Assembly: GCF_021631985.1 (NCBI RefSeq)
Contig: NZ_CP070225.1
Span: forward strand, 8,866,001-8,930,000
Reading direction: 5' to 3'
From: Sandaracinus amylolyticus
GTDB lineage: Bacteria; Myxococcota_A; Polyangia; Polyangiales; Sandaracinaceae
DNA length: 64,000 nt
How positions within the stretch are numbered: the stretch's first letter is position 1; each line of letters opens with the position of its first letter. Of this stretch, positions 22,061 to 47,556 are shown piece after piece. The notes under the pieces were generated by a model that was given only the letters and a program-made list of their open reading frames with translations, did no database searches and was not told where the DNA came from. A program made the translations under genes and the position numbers.

Positions 22061-23740
22061 TCACATGTCGATCGAGTTGGGGATCACACGCGGAGTGAGA
22101 TCGTCGTAGCGGAGGAGCCGAGTCTCGTTCGCGCGATCGATCTGTTTGTCGATCGCTGCCAGTGAGGCGCGGAATCGCGCGGCGACCGACTCCGCCGCAG
22201 GATCGCGATAGGGCTGGCGGTAATAGCCCAGTCGCGCGAGCGGCTTCGACGCGAGGAAGCTCAGCGTGCTGATCTGTCCGAGCGACGCGTCCTTCCCGGG
22301 CAGGAGCGCGAGCAGGTCGCGCTCTCCACTGCCGCGCGGCGCCGGCATCGGATTGCGCCATACCGCCGCGGGCATGTTGGGCACGAAGGTCATGAAGTCG
22401 CCCTGCGTCGCGTTGATCGCGTTGTGCAGAGGGCCGTTCACGAAGACGAGCGTGGCGAGCATCGCGACGAGCTCTTCGCGCGTGCGCGGCACCTCCAGCC
22501 CTGCGATGCGACCTCCGTCCTCGGCGGCGACCTCGGTCGCGAACGCCGCGAGCTCGGGATCGGCGACGACGTTTGCATCGCCGTCGTAATAGACGGCGAC
22601 GTAGCCACGGACATACGCCTCGATGGCGGACCACACGCGGAGCCCGTCGTCGCGGAACGGGTAATTCGGGATCGACGTATCGGGATCGGCGACTCCCCGC
22701 GATGCGAGCTCGCGCGGGAACGACGCGCCCGAGAACGTCCACGTCGCGCGGGCGCGCCCGAGGATCTCGAGCGAGCCCTCGAGCGCTCCTCCGAGATATC
22801 GATCGACCGGGCCCCCCTCGGCGATCAGCGTGCGACGCCCGAGATCGTTGTTCGCGATCAGCGCGTCGAAGTGATTGTCGAGCAGGATCCCGATCGGGTG
22901 CTCGGGCGCGAGCGTTCGCGCGCGGCCCACCGCGAAGGGCTCCATCGCGAAGTGACAGCCCCACAGGTGCAGCGCCATCTCGTGCACGTTCATGTCCGCG
23001 ACCTGCACCATCAGCTTCGCGACGGCCCAGTCCGCCGGCGCGCTGCCCGGCGTGTAGATCGGGTTCTCGCGCGGGTGCGCGCGCCGCTCGATCTGGATCG
23101 CGACCGGCCGCAGCGCGTGATGCCCGGTGTGCGTGTCGGCGAGATGGAACAGCGCATAGGGCGCCGGCAGATAGCGCTGCGCGCCGTGCGGGATGCCGTC
23201 GAGGATCTCGTAGTCGAGCAGGTAGAGGCGGTGCTCCGCGGCCGCGCGCGAGAGCGTCGCGCCGGTGCCGGCGATCGCCGCGAGGTGCGCGTCGGTGACC
23301 GGGAAGTCCTCGGGCAGCGCTCCGTCGACGCGGCGGATCATCATCGGGTTCGTGCCCGCGATGCGCTGCCACGCGAACACGTCGTCGCGCGTGTGGCTCT
23401 GGATGATCGCGGTCGGCGCGCCGAGCACCGGGAACAAGCGCTCGTAGTCGCGGATCGAGTCGAACGGACGTGAGACGTCGTCGAGCACCGCATGGCCCGC
23501 GTTCGCCGCGATCTCGGCGCCGCGTCGGGCGCGTGCCGCGACGAAGCGCGGGCCGGGCACGGCCTCGTGCGGAACGCCCGCGCACACCGCCAGGGGTGGC
23601 ACCGACGTGACGTCCCAGCGGAACGCTCTCCGCATCGCGTCCAGCGTGGCAGTGCGGCGCGCGCGCCGGGGATCGCGCTGCGGAATGGTGGGAGTCGCCT
23701 CCGACGGTGCCGGCTGAGCGGACTCGACGAGATGATCCAT
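22061..23740 (-). CDS. Lipoxygenase (bacterial, no PLAT domain)
   Basis: 559 residues from ATG 23740 (AGG nine bases upstream; an in-frame TTG at 23788 is possible). Lipoxygenase catalytic domain: VHEMALHLWGCH (252-263) supplies iron ligands His258 and His263, and LHNAIN (438-443) supplies His439 and Asn443. The NPIYTPGSAPADWAVAKLMVQVAD region and the RDDGLRVW segment also fit. Predicted to insert O2 into polyunsaturated fatty acids to give hydroperoxides. The C-terminus ends IPNSIDM, where lipoxygenases usually end in Ile, whose carboxylate binds iron; here it is Met559. Upstream is a kinase gene, downstream the FAD oxidase. Cytoplasmic or unexported as read. Confidence 0.88.
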   Translation of the reverse strand: MDHLVESAQPAPSEATPTIPQRDPRRARRTATLDAMRRAFRWDVTSVPPLAVCAGVPHEAVPGPRFVAARARRGAEIAANAGHAVLDDVSRPFDSIRDYERLFPVLGAPTAIIQSHTRDDVFAWQRIAGTNPMMIRRVDGALPEDFPVTDAHLAAIAGTGATLSRAAAEHRLYLLDYEILDGIPHGAQRYLPAPYALFHLADTHTGHHALRPVAIQIERRAHPRENPIYTPGSAPADWAVAKLMVQVADMNVHEMALHLWGCHFAMEPFAVGRARTLAPEHPIGILLDNHFDALIANNDLGRRTLIAEGGPVDRYLGGALEGSLEILGRARATWTFSGASFPRELASRGVADPDTSIPNYPFRDDGLRVWSAIEAYVRGYVAVYYDGDANVVADPELAAFATEVAAEDGGRIAGLEVPRTREELVAMLATLVFVNGPLHNAINATQGDFMTFVPNMPAAVWRNPMPAPRGSGERDLLALLPGKDASLGQISTLSFLASKPLARLGYYRQPYRDPAAESVAARFRASLAAIDKQIDRANETRLLRYDDLTPRVIPNSIDM

Positions 23741-23789
23741 CGTGCGTGACCTGGGCGCCGTCGCACCCGTCGCACGGTCTGCGATCAAA

Positions 23790-43902: not shown

Positions 43903-45186
43903 TCAGCGCGTCAGGATCGCCTCGTCGGCCGGGGTCGCCGGCGCGTCGATCTGCGGCGGGCGCATCGACGCGAAGCGCGCGTCGTGATCGGGCGTGACCT
44001 CCTCGGGCGTCGCGCTCGCCTGCTCGTCGACCGCGGCCCCGACCAGCGCCGCCGCGCTCTCGTAGCCCCACGAGAGCACCTTCGCGATCACCACCGGATC
44101 GATCACGGTCTGCGGGTGCCACACCGTCGTCCGCAGCGTCGGCGCATCGCCGCCGGCGCGCAGCGACTCGAGCGGCACCACGAAGTCGCCCGCGCCGTAG
44201 CCCGCGACCCGCAGCCGTCCGTTCGCGCCGCGCTCCACGCCGATCTTCGTCGGGTACCAGCTCGAGTAGAAGCGCACGGCGCGCTGCACGAGCGGGCTCG
44301 CGAAGAGCGTCTCGTGCAGCGCATCGCGCATCGTGCGCAGCATCGCGCGCGGCGCGCGGCCGGGCTCCCAGCACGTCTCGTCGTCGACGAGGCGCGCGTC
44401 GAACACCGCGCGATGCGGGAAGAGCTGCATCAGCCCGGGCCACGACGACGCCATCGCGCGCACGTCCTCGAACGTCTCGTCGATCGACGCCGCCCCGAGC
44501 GCGTGCATCAGCCACGGCTCACCGAGGTGCGCCGCGACCGCGTCGAAGCTGCCGCCGAGCGGCACCGCGACGAACGCCACGCGCGAGAACGCGTCGAGAT
44601 CGGCGTCGCCCCGCTGCGACCAGACGCTCGCGACGAGCCCGCCCATCGAGTGCGCGACGAGGATCATCGGGCGCCCGTGCTTGGCGCGCAGCGCGCGCAC
44701 CTGCTCGCCGAAGCGTCGCGCCTCGTCGCGCACGTCGCGCCGCCAGTCGTACGTGATCGTCTCGACGTGCATGCCGCAGAGCTGCCACGCCGTGATCGCG
44801 GGACCGTACGCGAGGTAGAGCGGCGCGCGCTCGGGCACCACGTCGGACTCTTCGTGGGGCCGCGCCCACGACGCCTCGGGGATCGCGAGCCGCCGCGCGA
44901 CGCTGCCGTTCACGGTGCGCCCTGGGTGGAGCCAGATGCGCGCGCTCGGATCGCTGCGCTCCGCGAGGTGTCCGCCGAGGATGCCGTGCACGAGCACCAC
45001 GACCGGCCGCTCTTCGTCGGTCGCGTCGAGCGTGTCGAGGGGCGCCTCGTTCGCGATGGCGCGCAACAGCGCCAGCGTCTCGTGTGGGAACAGCGCCGGT
45101 AGGTTCGTGTCCTCGGCGGAGCCGAATCGCTCCGCGAGCGCGTCGAGCGATGCGCGCTCGAGCAGCTCGAGCAGCGTTGTCGTCAT
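43903..45186 (-). CDS. Alpha/beta-hydrolase (LCAT/PGAP1-like lipase or acyltransferase)
   Basis: 427 residues from ATG 45186 with GGAGGG five bases upstream. The oxyanion region HGILGGH (67-73) and nucleophile elbow AHSMGG (178-183, Ser180) place it in the lipase/LCAT-like branch; large insertions follow the elbow. The Asp and His of the triad are probably in the 370-400 region (VWHPQTV near 358) but cannot be fixed by eye. No signal peptide. Convergent and directly abutting the PP2C gene. Could act on membrane lipids or polyesters. Confidence 0.78.
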   Translation of the reverse strand: MTTTLLELLERASLDALAERFGSAEDTNLPALFPHETLALLRAIANEAPLDTLDATDEERPVVVLVHGILGGHLAERSDPSARIWLHPGRTVNGSVARRLAIPEASWARPHEESDVVPERAPLYLAYGPAITAWQLCGMHVETITYDWRRDVRDEARRFGEQVRALRAKHGRPMILVAHSMGGLVASVWSQRGDADLDAFSRVAFVAVPLGGSFDAVAAHLGEPWLMHALGAASIDETFEDVRAMASSWPGLMQLFPHRAVFDARLVDDETCWEPGRAPRAMLRTMRDALHETLFASPLVQRAVRFYSSWYPTKIGVERGANGRLRVAGYGAGDFVVPLESLRAGGDAPTLRTTVWHPQTVIDPVVIAKVLSWGYESAAALVGAAVDEQASATPEEVTPDHDARFASMRPPQIDAPATPADEAILTR

Positions 45187-45353
45187 TCCAACCCTCCCGC
45201 GCGGCAGCATAACGCGCGTCCTCTCGCGACTGGCGAAGAAGATCCGCGCTCGAGGGTCGTTCGATCGAGCACCCTCCGGGGTGAGGCCTCGTGCCGCACT
45301 GCGCGCGTGTTCGTCGAGGATGTCCCCGACACGCCGTCACGCGCCGGCCGCGA

Positions 45354-45929
45354 TCACCAGGTCACGACGTAATTGCAGGTCGCGCCGTTCGCGTAGCGAC
45401 ACTCGGTGTGCCGCACCGACGCGTTGGTCGCGCCCGCCAGCTTGAGGCCCATCTCGATCCACGCCGGGCACCCGGGCCCACAGAAGAGCTGGTTCGGCGC
45501 GAGGTCGTCGCCCACCGGCGAGTCGAGCGTGAGGCGCCAGTGGCGCGGCCCGATCTCCTTCGGCGTGAGCGTCCCGCTGTCGAAGTAGCGGCTCCAGAGC
45601 GAGCCGGTGCGACCGAGCAGGAATTCGGGCGACCCGAAGCGCAGCGCCATCTTGTAGACGGTGCCGAGATCGTTGTCGGCGATGAACGCGGAGAGCTTCC
45701 GCATCTCCTCGTCGCGCGCGCGGTGCTCGCCGAGCAGCGCGGTGACTGCGCGGTTCACGATGCCGATCGGGACCCATCCCCCGGCGAGCAGCACCCCGGA
45801 CAGCACCTCTCGGTCCTCGCGACTGGCGCGCTCGAGCACCCCGTTCCACGCCCGCTCGCCATAGCTCTGCACGGCGTAACTGCGCATGTGGAGGACGAGA
45901 CTGGCTTTGCCGCGGGCTTGTCTCAGCAT
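45354..45929 (-). CDS. DUF2378-like (TIGR02265) protein
   Basis: 191 residues. Helical domain with SYGERAWNGVLERASREDRE, ADNDLGTVYKMALRF and LWSRYFDSG followed by a small Cys-containing C-terminus (TECRYANGATCNYVVTW). Length and the RYFDSG-type region fit the Myxococcota-restricted DUF2378 family, and the tail recalls V4R/haem-associated small-molecule domains. Function of the family is unknown. Divergent from the lipoxygenase-like gene, so they may share a promoter. Family assignment by pattern only. Confidence 0.6.
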   Translation of the reverse strand: MLRQARGKASLVLHMRSYAVQSYGERAWNGVLERASREDREVLSGVLLAGGWVPIGIVNRAVTALLGEHRARDEEMRKLSAFIADNDLGTVYKMALRFGSPEFLLGRTGSLWSRYFDSGTLTPKEIGPRHWRLTLDSPVGDDLAPNQLFCGPGCPAWIEMGLKLAGATNASVRHTECRYANGATCNYVVTW

Positions 45930-46044
45930 CTTTGCGGCGAGAGTACACCCGGAGCACGCGAATCGAGCGGTCGATTGAGGTCCTCGGCAAAACAGCCGTC
46001 ATCTCCGTACTGAAAATCCACCGTTCTCATAGACCCTCGAATGG

Positions 46045-47556
46045 GTGCACTATCAGGGCGGAATGTTCCTCCAGAACGCTGGGCGTATCGGAAATGTCCC
46101 CAAGAAGAAGTTCCTGTATTCGCGCAAGGGCCCTTGGCCGCAGCCCTCGCCCACCGAGCCCCTCGGGACCGCGCCCGAGGTGCTGCACCTCCCGTGGCAG
46201 GAGGTCCTCGATTTCCAGGTCCACATCGGGCTGCGCTACATGCGCGACCTCTTCGTGTGTGGGCCCGCCGCGCTGGTGAAGGCGCTCGGCTTCCGGGAGC
46301 TGCCGGAGATCCCCGACGACGCGCTGGCGAGCGCGCTCACGCGCGGGCTCTACTCGCGCTTCCTGTCGCCGCTCGATCCCGCGGATCTCACGACATTCGG
46401 GGTCGATCCGAGCGACGGCGTGTTGCGCTACAAGATCGACTTCTCGCCCATCGCGAGCGTCGATCCCTACGAGGGCATGTACGTCGCGCCGACGATCACG
46501 CTGCTGCGGCGCGAGGGCCCGACGAGCCCGACGTTCGCCGTCGAGGCGGTCGCGATCGGCGAGACCGAGCTCGTGCTGCGCCCCGGCGACGGCCCGTCGT
46601 GGGAGCTCGCGAAGTACTTCGTGCTGCAGGGCTGCAGCTACGGGACGCTCTTCACCGAGCACCCCAACGTCCACTTCCCCTACGACACGATCAACGCGAT
46701 CACGAAGGGCTCGATCCCCACCGATCACCTGCTCTTCCAGCTGCTCCACCCGCACCTGCGGTTCTCGCTCGTGCTGGACAATTCAGTGCTGCAGTCGCCC
46801 GCGTCGGTGATCAGTGAATTCCGGCACACCATCTACGATCCGTTCACTGCGCGTGCGAGTGATGGTCTGATGTCGTTCTTCATCGCCGGGTACAAGGGCA
46901 TTCGAGACAATGCCGCATATCCCGGCTATCGATATGCGGAATCGACTGCCACGCTCGGACTGCCTCCCACGGACTACGGTCGTTTTCTCGAGTCCTATTT
47001 CGGCCCGTTCCACTGGCTCACGCAGCAGGTCGTCGCGGCGATGGACGACGACGAGATGTCGTACTGCGAGGAGTGGGCGCGCTGGATCCGGGTGTGGATC
47101 GAGTCGTTCCCCGAGCTCCACCACCGCCACGTCGACGCTGCCGAGCGGCAGCGGACGCGCGAGAAGCTCGCGTTCGCGCTCGCGGTGATGCTCTGGGACG
47201 TGACGGTCGTGCACTCGACCGATCACCACGACTTCGCGACCGACATCCCGGTCGAGTGGAAGTGCTTCCGCCTGCGTGTGCCGCCCCCGGTCGCGCGCGA
47301 CGGAGGCACGGTCGATCGCGGCAAGCTCTCGCGGCGCATCGACCTGTTCAAGTCGCACCTCGCGCATCGCATGTTCTTCGCACCGACCACGGTCACGAAG
47401 CTGATCGACACCGAGTACGACTTCGGCACCGACGCGCTGCGCGCCGTGCACAACGAGTTCATCGAGCGCCTGCGCCGCGTCGACGCGGACCTCCCGTCGC
47501 GCGGCATCAAGCGCTTCATCCCCCTCGGCGAGATCGCCGCCAGCATCCAGTACTGA
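46045..47556 (+). CDS. Divergent lipoxygenase-superfamily protein with altered metal ligands
   Basis: 503 residues from GTG 46045; ATG 46063 is an alternative with an AGGGCGG site close by. The domain aligns with lipoxygenases: AKYFVLQGC (189-197), a His pair HPNVH (206-210) followed at the same 17-residue distance by DHLLFQLLHPHLRF (227-240), GPFHWLT, a WIxxWIESF region, and the late His block VVHSTDHHDF (388-397). By comparison with the lipoxygenase at 22061, His210 and His390 match iron ligands, but the other helix-9 His is Glu205 (or a shifted His206) and the usual Asn is His394. The C-terminus is Tyr503, not Ile. Iron use and activity are uncertain. A central segment has low GC. Confidence 0.7.
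   Translation: MHYQGGMFLQNAGRIGNVPKKKFLYSRKGPWPQPSPTEPLGTAPEVLHLPWQEVLDFQVHIGLRYMRDLFVCGPAALVKALGFRELPEIPDDALASALTRGLYSRFLSPLDPADLTTFGVDPSDGVLRYKIDFSPIASVDPYEGMYVAPTITLLRREGPTSPTFAVEAVAIGETELVLRPGDGPSWELAKYFVLQGCSYGTLFTEHPNVHFPYDTINAITKGSIPTDHLLFQLLHPHLRFSLVLDNSVLQSPASVISEFRHTIYDPFTARASDGLMSFFIAGYKGIRDNAAYPGYRYAESTATLGLPPTDYGRFLESYFGPFHWLTQQVVAAMDDDEMSYCEEWARWIRVWIESFPELHHRHVDAAERQRTREKLAFALAVMLWDVTVVHSTDHHDFATDIPVEWKCFRLRVPPPVARDGGTVDRGKLSRRIDLFKSHLAHRMFFAPTTVTKLIDTEYDFGTDALRAVHNEFIERLRRVDADLPSRGIKRFIPLGEIAASIQY

Follow-up and report, generated by a model that had tools for sequence, protein, structure and literature searches.

Gene content, fold and family

The window, i.e., the whole stretch of DNA analysed here, comprises 64,000 nucleotides from Sandaracinus amylolyticus; the features discussed are collected in Table 1. 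The gene of interest encodes a protein referred to below as LOX-like, and faces away from a smaller gene on the opposite strand, referred to as the partner. A canonical lipoxygenase (LOX) gene is found elsewhere in the window.

Table 1. Features of the window, with positions counted from its first nucleotide; residues are those of the LOX-like protein unless stated otherwise
Feature	Position	Strand	Evidence or remark
Canonical LOX	22061-23788	-	PF00305 4e-53; Cyanothece LOX 3e-95
LCAT-like lipase adjoining the partner gene, membership uncertain	43903..45210	-	PF02450 1.5e-5; kept in same-genus L056 only
H-NOX-fold partner, 191 aa, with C150/H174/C177/C185 and Trp112 at the proximal heme His position	45354..45929	-	AF2, Foldseek/VIA; heme column from a weak hhalign
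Intergenic region, 115 bases, possible shared control region	45930..46044	.	divergent order also in L056, L057, L060
LOX-like protein	46045..47556	+	GTG at 46045 gives 503 aa; ATG at 46063 gives 497 aa
Codon of Thr201, iron ligand 1 column	46645..46647	+	hhalign pairing with H269; His in none of 57 members
Codon of His206, ligand 2 column	46660..46662	+	57/57; hhalign
Codon of His210, third LOX-motif His	46672..46674	+	57/57; H-x3-H replaces H-x4-H
Codons of His390-x2-Asp393-His394	47212..47226	+	columns of ligand 3 and ligand 4, with a conserved acidic residue just before the latter
Codon of C-terminal Tyr503	47551..47553	+	VIA-align: at the C-terminal Ile ligand; Y/F/W in 56/57

As a single sequence, the LOX-like protein matched no Pfam or NCBIfam family at E<=1, while phmmer returned leukocyte 12-lipoxygenase (E = 0.0037). 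The curated cut-off of PF00305 (23.6 bits) was not reached by the window protein, and half of 20 LOX-like sequences scanned matched this family weakly (best E = 1.8e-4). A profile built from 20 rows of relatives found only lipoxygenases in the PDB (45/45 matches, best E = 2.7e-11), and hhalign of the family against an alignment of canonical LOXs gave a probability of 99.7% (E = 1.4e-25). The AF2 model (pLDDT 91.7, pTM 0.91) agreed with this; all 50 PDB matches listed by Foldseek were lipoxygenases (best E = 1.3e-13), and VIA-align superposed the model on human 12-LOX (8ghc_A) with Z = 30.4 over 456 residues (rmsd 3.1), pairing model residues 9..497 with 8ghc_A through to residue 663, and thereby reaching the C-terminal residue of both proteins. 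The preliminary description had taken the product of this gene for a diverged protein of lipoxygenase fold whose metal site had changed, and the superposition and the family profile upheld the claim of fold. The missing Pfam match is outweighed, because the family profile and the fold both indicate a relationship to lipoxygenases.

According to the model, therefore, the window protein has a complete lipoxygenase catalytic fold in a single domain, with no PLAT domain. Lipoxygenases are enzymes that add oxygen to fats; the protein is a member of their fold superfamily, but is named LOX-like rather than lipoxygenase because it lacks the full set of three histidines that defines a catalytic lipoxygenase and falls below the Pfam cut-off.

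When 84,980 species genomes were scanned, they yielded 20 LOX-like relatives with 29–38% identity, from Bacteriovoracaceae, Bacteroidota (Algoriphagus and Saprospiraceae), the Pseudomonas syringae group, Yersinia rohdei, an actinobacterium and a planctomycete. Within the order there were 13 matches at E<=1e-100 in 10 of 97 genomes, counting the genome of the window itself; further searches found the family in 9 of 284 genomes of the phylum, 2 of 345 Bacteroidota and 21 of 241 Bdellovibrionota. The 57 members assembled from these sources (Myxococcota, Bdellovibrionota, Bacteroidota, Pseudomonadota and others) were separated from 14 other LOX homologs in a maximum-likelihood tree with full support (100/100), and constitute a separate, well-conserved bacterial family. 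Reading frames were intact throughout the order-level and Bdellovibrionota sets, and comparison of the window gene with its ortholog from a sister species of the same genus gave a dN/dS of 0.116, which indicates purifying selection. A search of plasmids produced no match. Searches of the open-licence literature returned no report of the family or of a LOX/H-NOX pairing, and nothing relevant on pseudo-lipoxygenases, on lipoxygenase with H-NOX, or on lipoxygenase with Bdellovibrio.

The central part of the LOX-like gene (46861-46980) had previously attracted attention for its base composition, which was interpreted as a sign of separate ancestry. The low value is real (GC = 0.575, against 0.722 for the window, and among the lowest 0.4% of 120-base windows), but the interpretation was rejected, because the same stretch is equally low in the sister-species ortholog (0.592); moreover, the window protein grouped with its own order in the tree.

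A remodelled, putative metal site

Ligand columns were assigned by hhalign against the alignment of canonical LOXs, with residues numbered as in the canonical LOX of the window, in which all four side-chain ligands are present and the classic H-x4-H-x4-H-x17-H-x8-H motif begins with His 269, 274 and 279 (counted from TTG). Thr201 of the LOX-like protein was paired with H269 (ligand 1) and His206 with H274 (ligand 2); a gap of one residue followed, after which His210 was paired with H279, the third His of the motif and not a ligand. Downstream, H390 corresponded to H455 (ligand 3) and H394 to N459 (ligand 4). The same register was obtained by a gap-free count from the conserved Trp186, which put T201 at W+15 and H206 at W+20. 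The earlier view that ligand positions were altered was therefore right about a real change in the site, but had misnamed the columns. Glu205 (or a shifted His206) had been placed at ligand 1, a position belonging to Thr201, with His206 at ligand 2; similarly, His263 of the canonical protein and His210 had been taken for the second His of helix 9, when they are the third of the motif, the first two being at 253 and 258 in the same numbering (from the Met at residue 17). The other elements of that comparison, i.e., the spacing of 17 residues and the LL-x2-H block common to the two proteins, the His390-x3-His394 arrangement and the terminal Tyr503, were all present. The canonical protein of the window, which had been thought to end in Ile, ends in Met (IPNSIDM), and so in neither Ile nor Val.

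Across the 57 LOX-like sequences the ligand-1 column was occupied by A, I, L, T, S, M, V, C or F, and by His in none. H206, H210, H237, H390 and H394 were each invariant (57/57), D393 was kept in 56 members, and the last residue was Y, F or W in 56, compared with Ile or Val in canonical LOXs. Hence, of the three iron-binding histidines of a lipoxygenase (H-x4-H in helix 9 plus the His of helix 18), ligand 1 is gone while ligands 2 and 3 are kept, and the fourth position, Asn or His in lipoxygenases, is filled by His394 in every member. The presence of His here had been counted among the alterations, but it is not unusual; known mammalian LOXs combine three His, an Asn or His and a C-terminal Ile, and rabbit ALOX15 has His545 at ligand 4 (PMC11593649). 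Tyr503 was structurally aligned with the C-terminal Ile ligand, although the residue type is Tyr or Phe, not Ile or Val. DSSP assignment of the AF2 model placed a break in helix 9 precisely at His206, which is residue 200 in the 497-aa numbering of the model.

Taken together, alignments and model indicate a putative metal site that is remodelled and conserved, having lost the ligand-1 His and one residue of helix 9 after ligand 2. The change is more than chance, because all 57 members show it, and the claim of a changed site is stronger than when first made, because the trait is family-wide. The coordinating set, as judged by alignment, would likely consist of three histidines (206, 390 and 394) and the carboxylate of the C-terminal aromatic residue, with His210 close by; through the shortening of helix 9 by one residue, His210 may itself enter the metal sphere. 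In known LOXs the first three histidines count as essential, and because of this the LOX-like site may have no activity or may take a different metal. A four-ligand site (H206/H390/H394/COO-) would nonetheless be chemically plausible by analogy with human ALOX15B, because that enzyme manages with four protein ligands (3 His + Ile) plus two waters, having Ser at the fourth-ligand position (PMC11593649).

Loss of ligand 1 was also observed outside the family. Five of the 14 other LOX homologs of the order lacked this His, having Gln (L034, L049), Ala (L038, L040) or Trp (L039) instead, and L038 and L040 also had the shortened H-x3-H. Ligand 1 is thus the most changeable ligand in this set, and its loss recurs in bacterial LOX homologs; the LOX-like family is for this reason a well-conserved example rather than a unique one.

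The partner and other gene neighbours

The partner matched no Pfam or NCBIfam family, HNOB (PF07700) included, and genome G000 gave no match to PF07700 at E<=1e-10. Its AF2 model (pLDDT 93), however, retrieved H-NOX or guanylate cyclase heme domains as the first 41 Foldseek matches, and VIA superposed it on S. oneidensis H-NOX (4u99) with Z = 17.5. C150, H174, C177 and C185 were invariant among partner orthologs (alignment A3), with the spacing H-x2-C-x7-C of the H-NOX zinc site; this site is formed by Cys139, His161, Cys164 and Cys172 in S. oneidensis and is present in a subset of H-NOX proteins (PMC7108781). The column of the proximal heme His was paired with the invariant Trp112, in a weak hhalign alignment (probability 20%), and no conserved His occurred in the proximal-heme region of alignments A3 and A4. 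The partner combines an H-NOX fold with a zinc/redox Cys-His motif and apparently lacks the heme His. In V. cholerae H-NOX, oxidation of the zinc site regulates histidine kinases without heme (PMC7108781, PMC12329717). In the H-NOX described in PMC12329717, which we read as that of Caulobacter, such oxidation regulates them whatever the heme state. Small proteins of H-NOX/V4R fold are strongly expanded in the myxobacteria of this order, with matches in 51 of 97 genomes and up to six in each (e.g., L074-L092); most of those aligned carry a C-terminal Cys pair.

LOX-like and partner genes were distributed together. Seven order-level genomes had a LOX-like match below E = 1e-130, and exactly these had a partner match at E<1e-80, out of 97 genomes that are phylogenetically non-independent and whose kinship this figure ignores. 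The next partner-like match was at 6.5e-28, a partner ortholog being absent from all 90 other genomes, and the two genes were adjacent in 7 of 7. Their order was divergent in the window, L056, L057, L058 (from coordinates) and L060, and tandem in L061 and L062. Because the pairs of tandem order fall in another part of the LOX-like tree, the link between the two genes is probably old. Some genomes of the order also carry further LOX-like subfamilies without an H-NOX-like partner (L029/L030 and L047/L048, from G058 and G061; L046, from G043), with C-termini such as SGVHY and QSIQY.

Beyond the order, the neighbours were different. In Bacteroidota a gene of 1707–1793 aa lay directly downstream of the LOX-like gene on the same strand at all six complete loci; at the four loci scanned, its product had a protein kinase-AAA-GAF arrangement ending in a histidine kinase or guanylate cyclase domain, and full-length genes of this kind numbered only two per genome in the two genomes tested. 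In Bdellovibrionota a histidine kinase adjoined 7 of 24 LOX-like copies, where approximately 0.6 would be expected (from ~46 HATPase domains per genome and an assumed ~3,650 genes), and a response regulator adjoined one more; beside 17 of the 24 there was neither a histidine kinase nor an H-NOX-like gene. The Pseudomonas and Yersinia loci and the other myxobacterial subfamilies likewise had neither in an adjacent position. Among the Bdellovibrionota kinases, L004, L009, L110, L111 and L112 clearly share an N-terminal domain, as L117 does weakly, for which there was no Pfam match; kinases sharing this domain stand in different orientations beside LOX-like genes. In a planctomycete (L019:1057-3095), the LOX-like gene was followed after ~23 bases by an NTE/patatin phospholipase with cyclic-nucleotide-binding domains. 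The LCAT-like lipase of the window is a possible supplier of substrate.

These surroundings suggest a lipid- or oxygen-related signalling system beside LOX-like genes, and lend unexpected support to the idea, raised in the preliminary description, of a regulatory relative of lipoxygenases.

Interpretation and known systems

Fold, family, site residues and gene pairing are established, and what follows on the metal, on catalysis, on the substrate and on which way the signal runs is inferred. The LOX-like protein would most likely still bind a metal, either iron or manganese, and oxidise a hydrophobic substrate; its product, or a change in its redox state, would then be read by a co-encoded sensor. 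In the window this sensor would be the H-NOX-fold protein with its Cys/His zinc-redox motif, in Bacteroidota the giant kinase-AAA-GAF-cyclase/histidine kinase, and in many Bdellovibrionota a membrane histidine kinase. A metal-dependent, LOX-type oxygenase within a signalling module is given a probability of about one half. It counts against a module that the partners differ between phyla, that many loci have no such neighbour, and that adjacency of kinases or sensors is by itself no proof of a shared pathway. A larger claim can be put forward tentatively: the LOX fold would have been repurposed as a receptor or signal generator, its conserved three-His site being short of ligand 1, and would act on an H-NOX-fold redox sensor, or directly on kinases and cyclases, in a bacterial oxylipin- or oxygen-sensing pathway of which the open-licence literature searched gave no account.

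It is somewhat unlikely that the protein is instead a non-catalytic receptor, binding lipid, O2 or NO at an incomplete metal site and regulating the neighbouring kinase or H-NOX-like protein directly. Such a role would suit the loss, in 57 of 57 members, of a ligand deemed essential, as well as the consistent pairing with sensor and kinase genes, in a layout resembling the H-NOX/HnoK pairs in which H-NOX regulates a histidine kinase (PMC12329717). However, the remaining positions of the active site do not vary and the C-terminal carboxylate keeps its place, which fits retained metal chemistry, and lipid-cleaving genes are found at some loci (the NTE-like phospholipase of L019 and the LCAT-like lipase of the window). 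More doubtful still is the reading that takes the protein for a common fatty-acid lipoxygenase whose ligand set has changed a little and whose gene neighbours are incidental; the family branches apart with full support, has the aromatic C-terminus, H-x3-H and H-x2-D-H nearly throughout, and shows gene adjacency far beyond chance, all of which speak against this, even though the LOX fold and channel-forming domain are intact, ligand 1 is also missing from L034, L038, L039, L040 and L049, and ALOX15B works with four protein ligands (PMC11593649). Finally, the missing ligand 1 and the single sequence without a Pfam match might recall a decaying pseudo-enzyme left from a canonical lipoxygenase, but this was rejected as extremely improbable given remodelled residues that are invariant across phyla, a low dN/dS and intact frames.

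Lipoxygenases are defined by their iron ligands. The loss of ligand 1 across a whole conserved family tests which ligands the LOX fold needs and what else the fold can do. Furthermore, H-NOX-fold, GAF-kinase and histidine-kinase genes recur beside LOX-like genes, and through them a possible bacterial system of lipid or oxygen signalling can be approached by experiment, in hosts that include groups of predatory and social bacteria.

Compared with lipoxygenases (PF00305; e.g., human 12-LOX, 8ghc; Cyanothece CspLOX2, 5med; Enhygromyxa salina LOX, 8x8f), the LOX-like protein is alike over the whole catalytic fold, and has in common H-x17-H-x8-H, His ligands 2, 3 and 4 and the position of the C-terminal carboxylate. 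The family differs in having no ligand-1 His (57/57), a one-residue deletion after ligand 2, a conserved Asp before ligand 4, an aromatic C-terminal residue and no PLAT domain. MX-LOX and MF-LOX1 are also LOX homologs from myxobacteria, according to the available excerpts of PMC6612559, which describe no signalling partner gene for either. As given there, MF-LOX1 differs from the LOX-like protein in having both iron-ligand clusters and is an arachidonic acid 12S-lipoxygenase, with a low iron occupancy of 5.6%; its description with 'His376 + His372' in the same excerpts may be a misprint, or may denote a second H-x3-H lipoxygenase.

The partner, for its part, has a weak profile match to MopR (E = 0.048) and resembles PoxR by fold, both being phenol sensors of the V4R/XylR_N type. 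Domains of this type bind small hydrophobic ligands. Unlike MopR and PoxR, the partner is a stand-alone domain without transcription-activator parts, and its match to H-NOX is clearly stronger. With the H-NOX/HnoK systems of Shewanella, Vibrio and Caulobacter (PMC7108781, PMC12329717) it shares the H-NOX fold and the Cys...His-x2-Cys-x7-Cys motif; unlike them, it reads Trp at the proximal heme His in a weak profile alignment, and where those systems are linked directly to HnoK, its own gene pairs with a LOX-like one.
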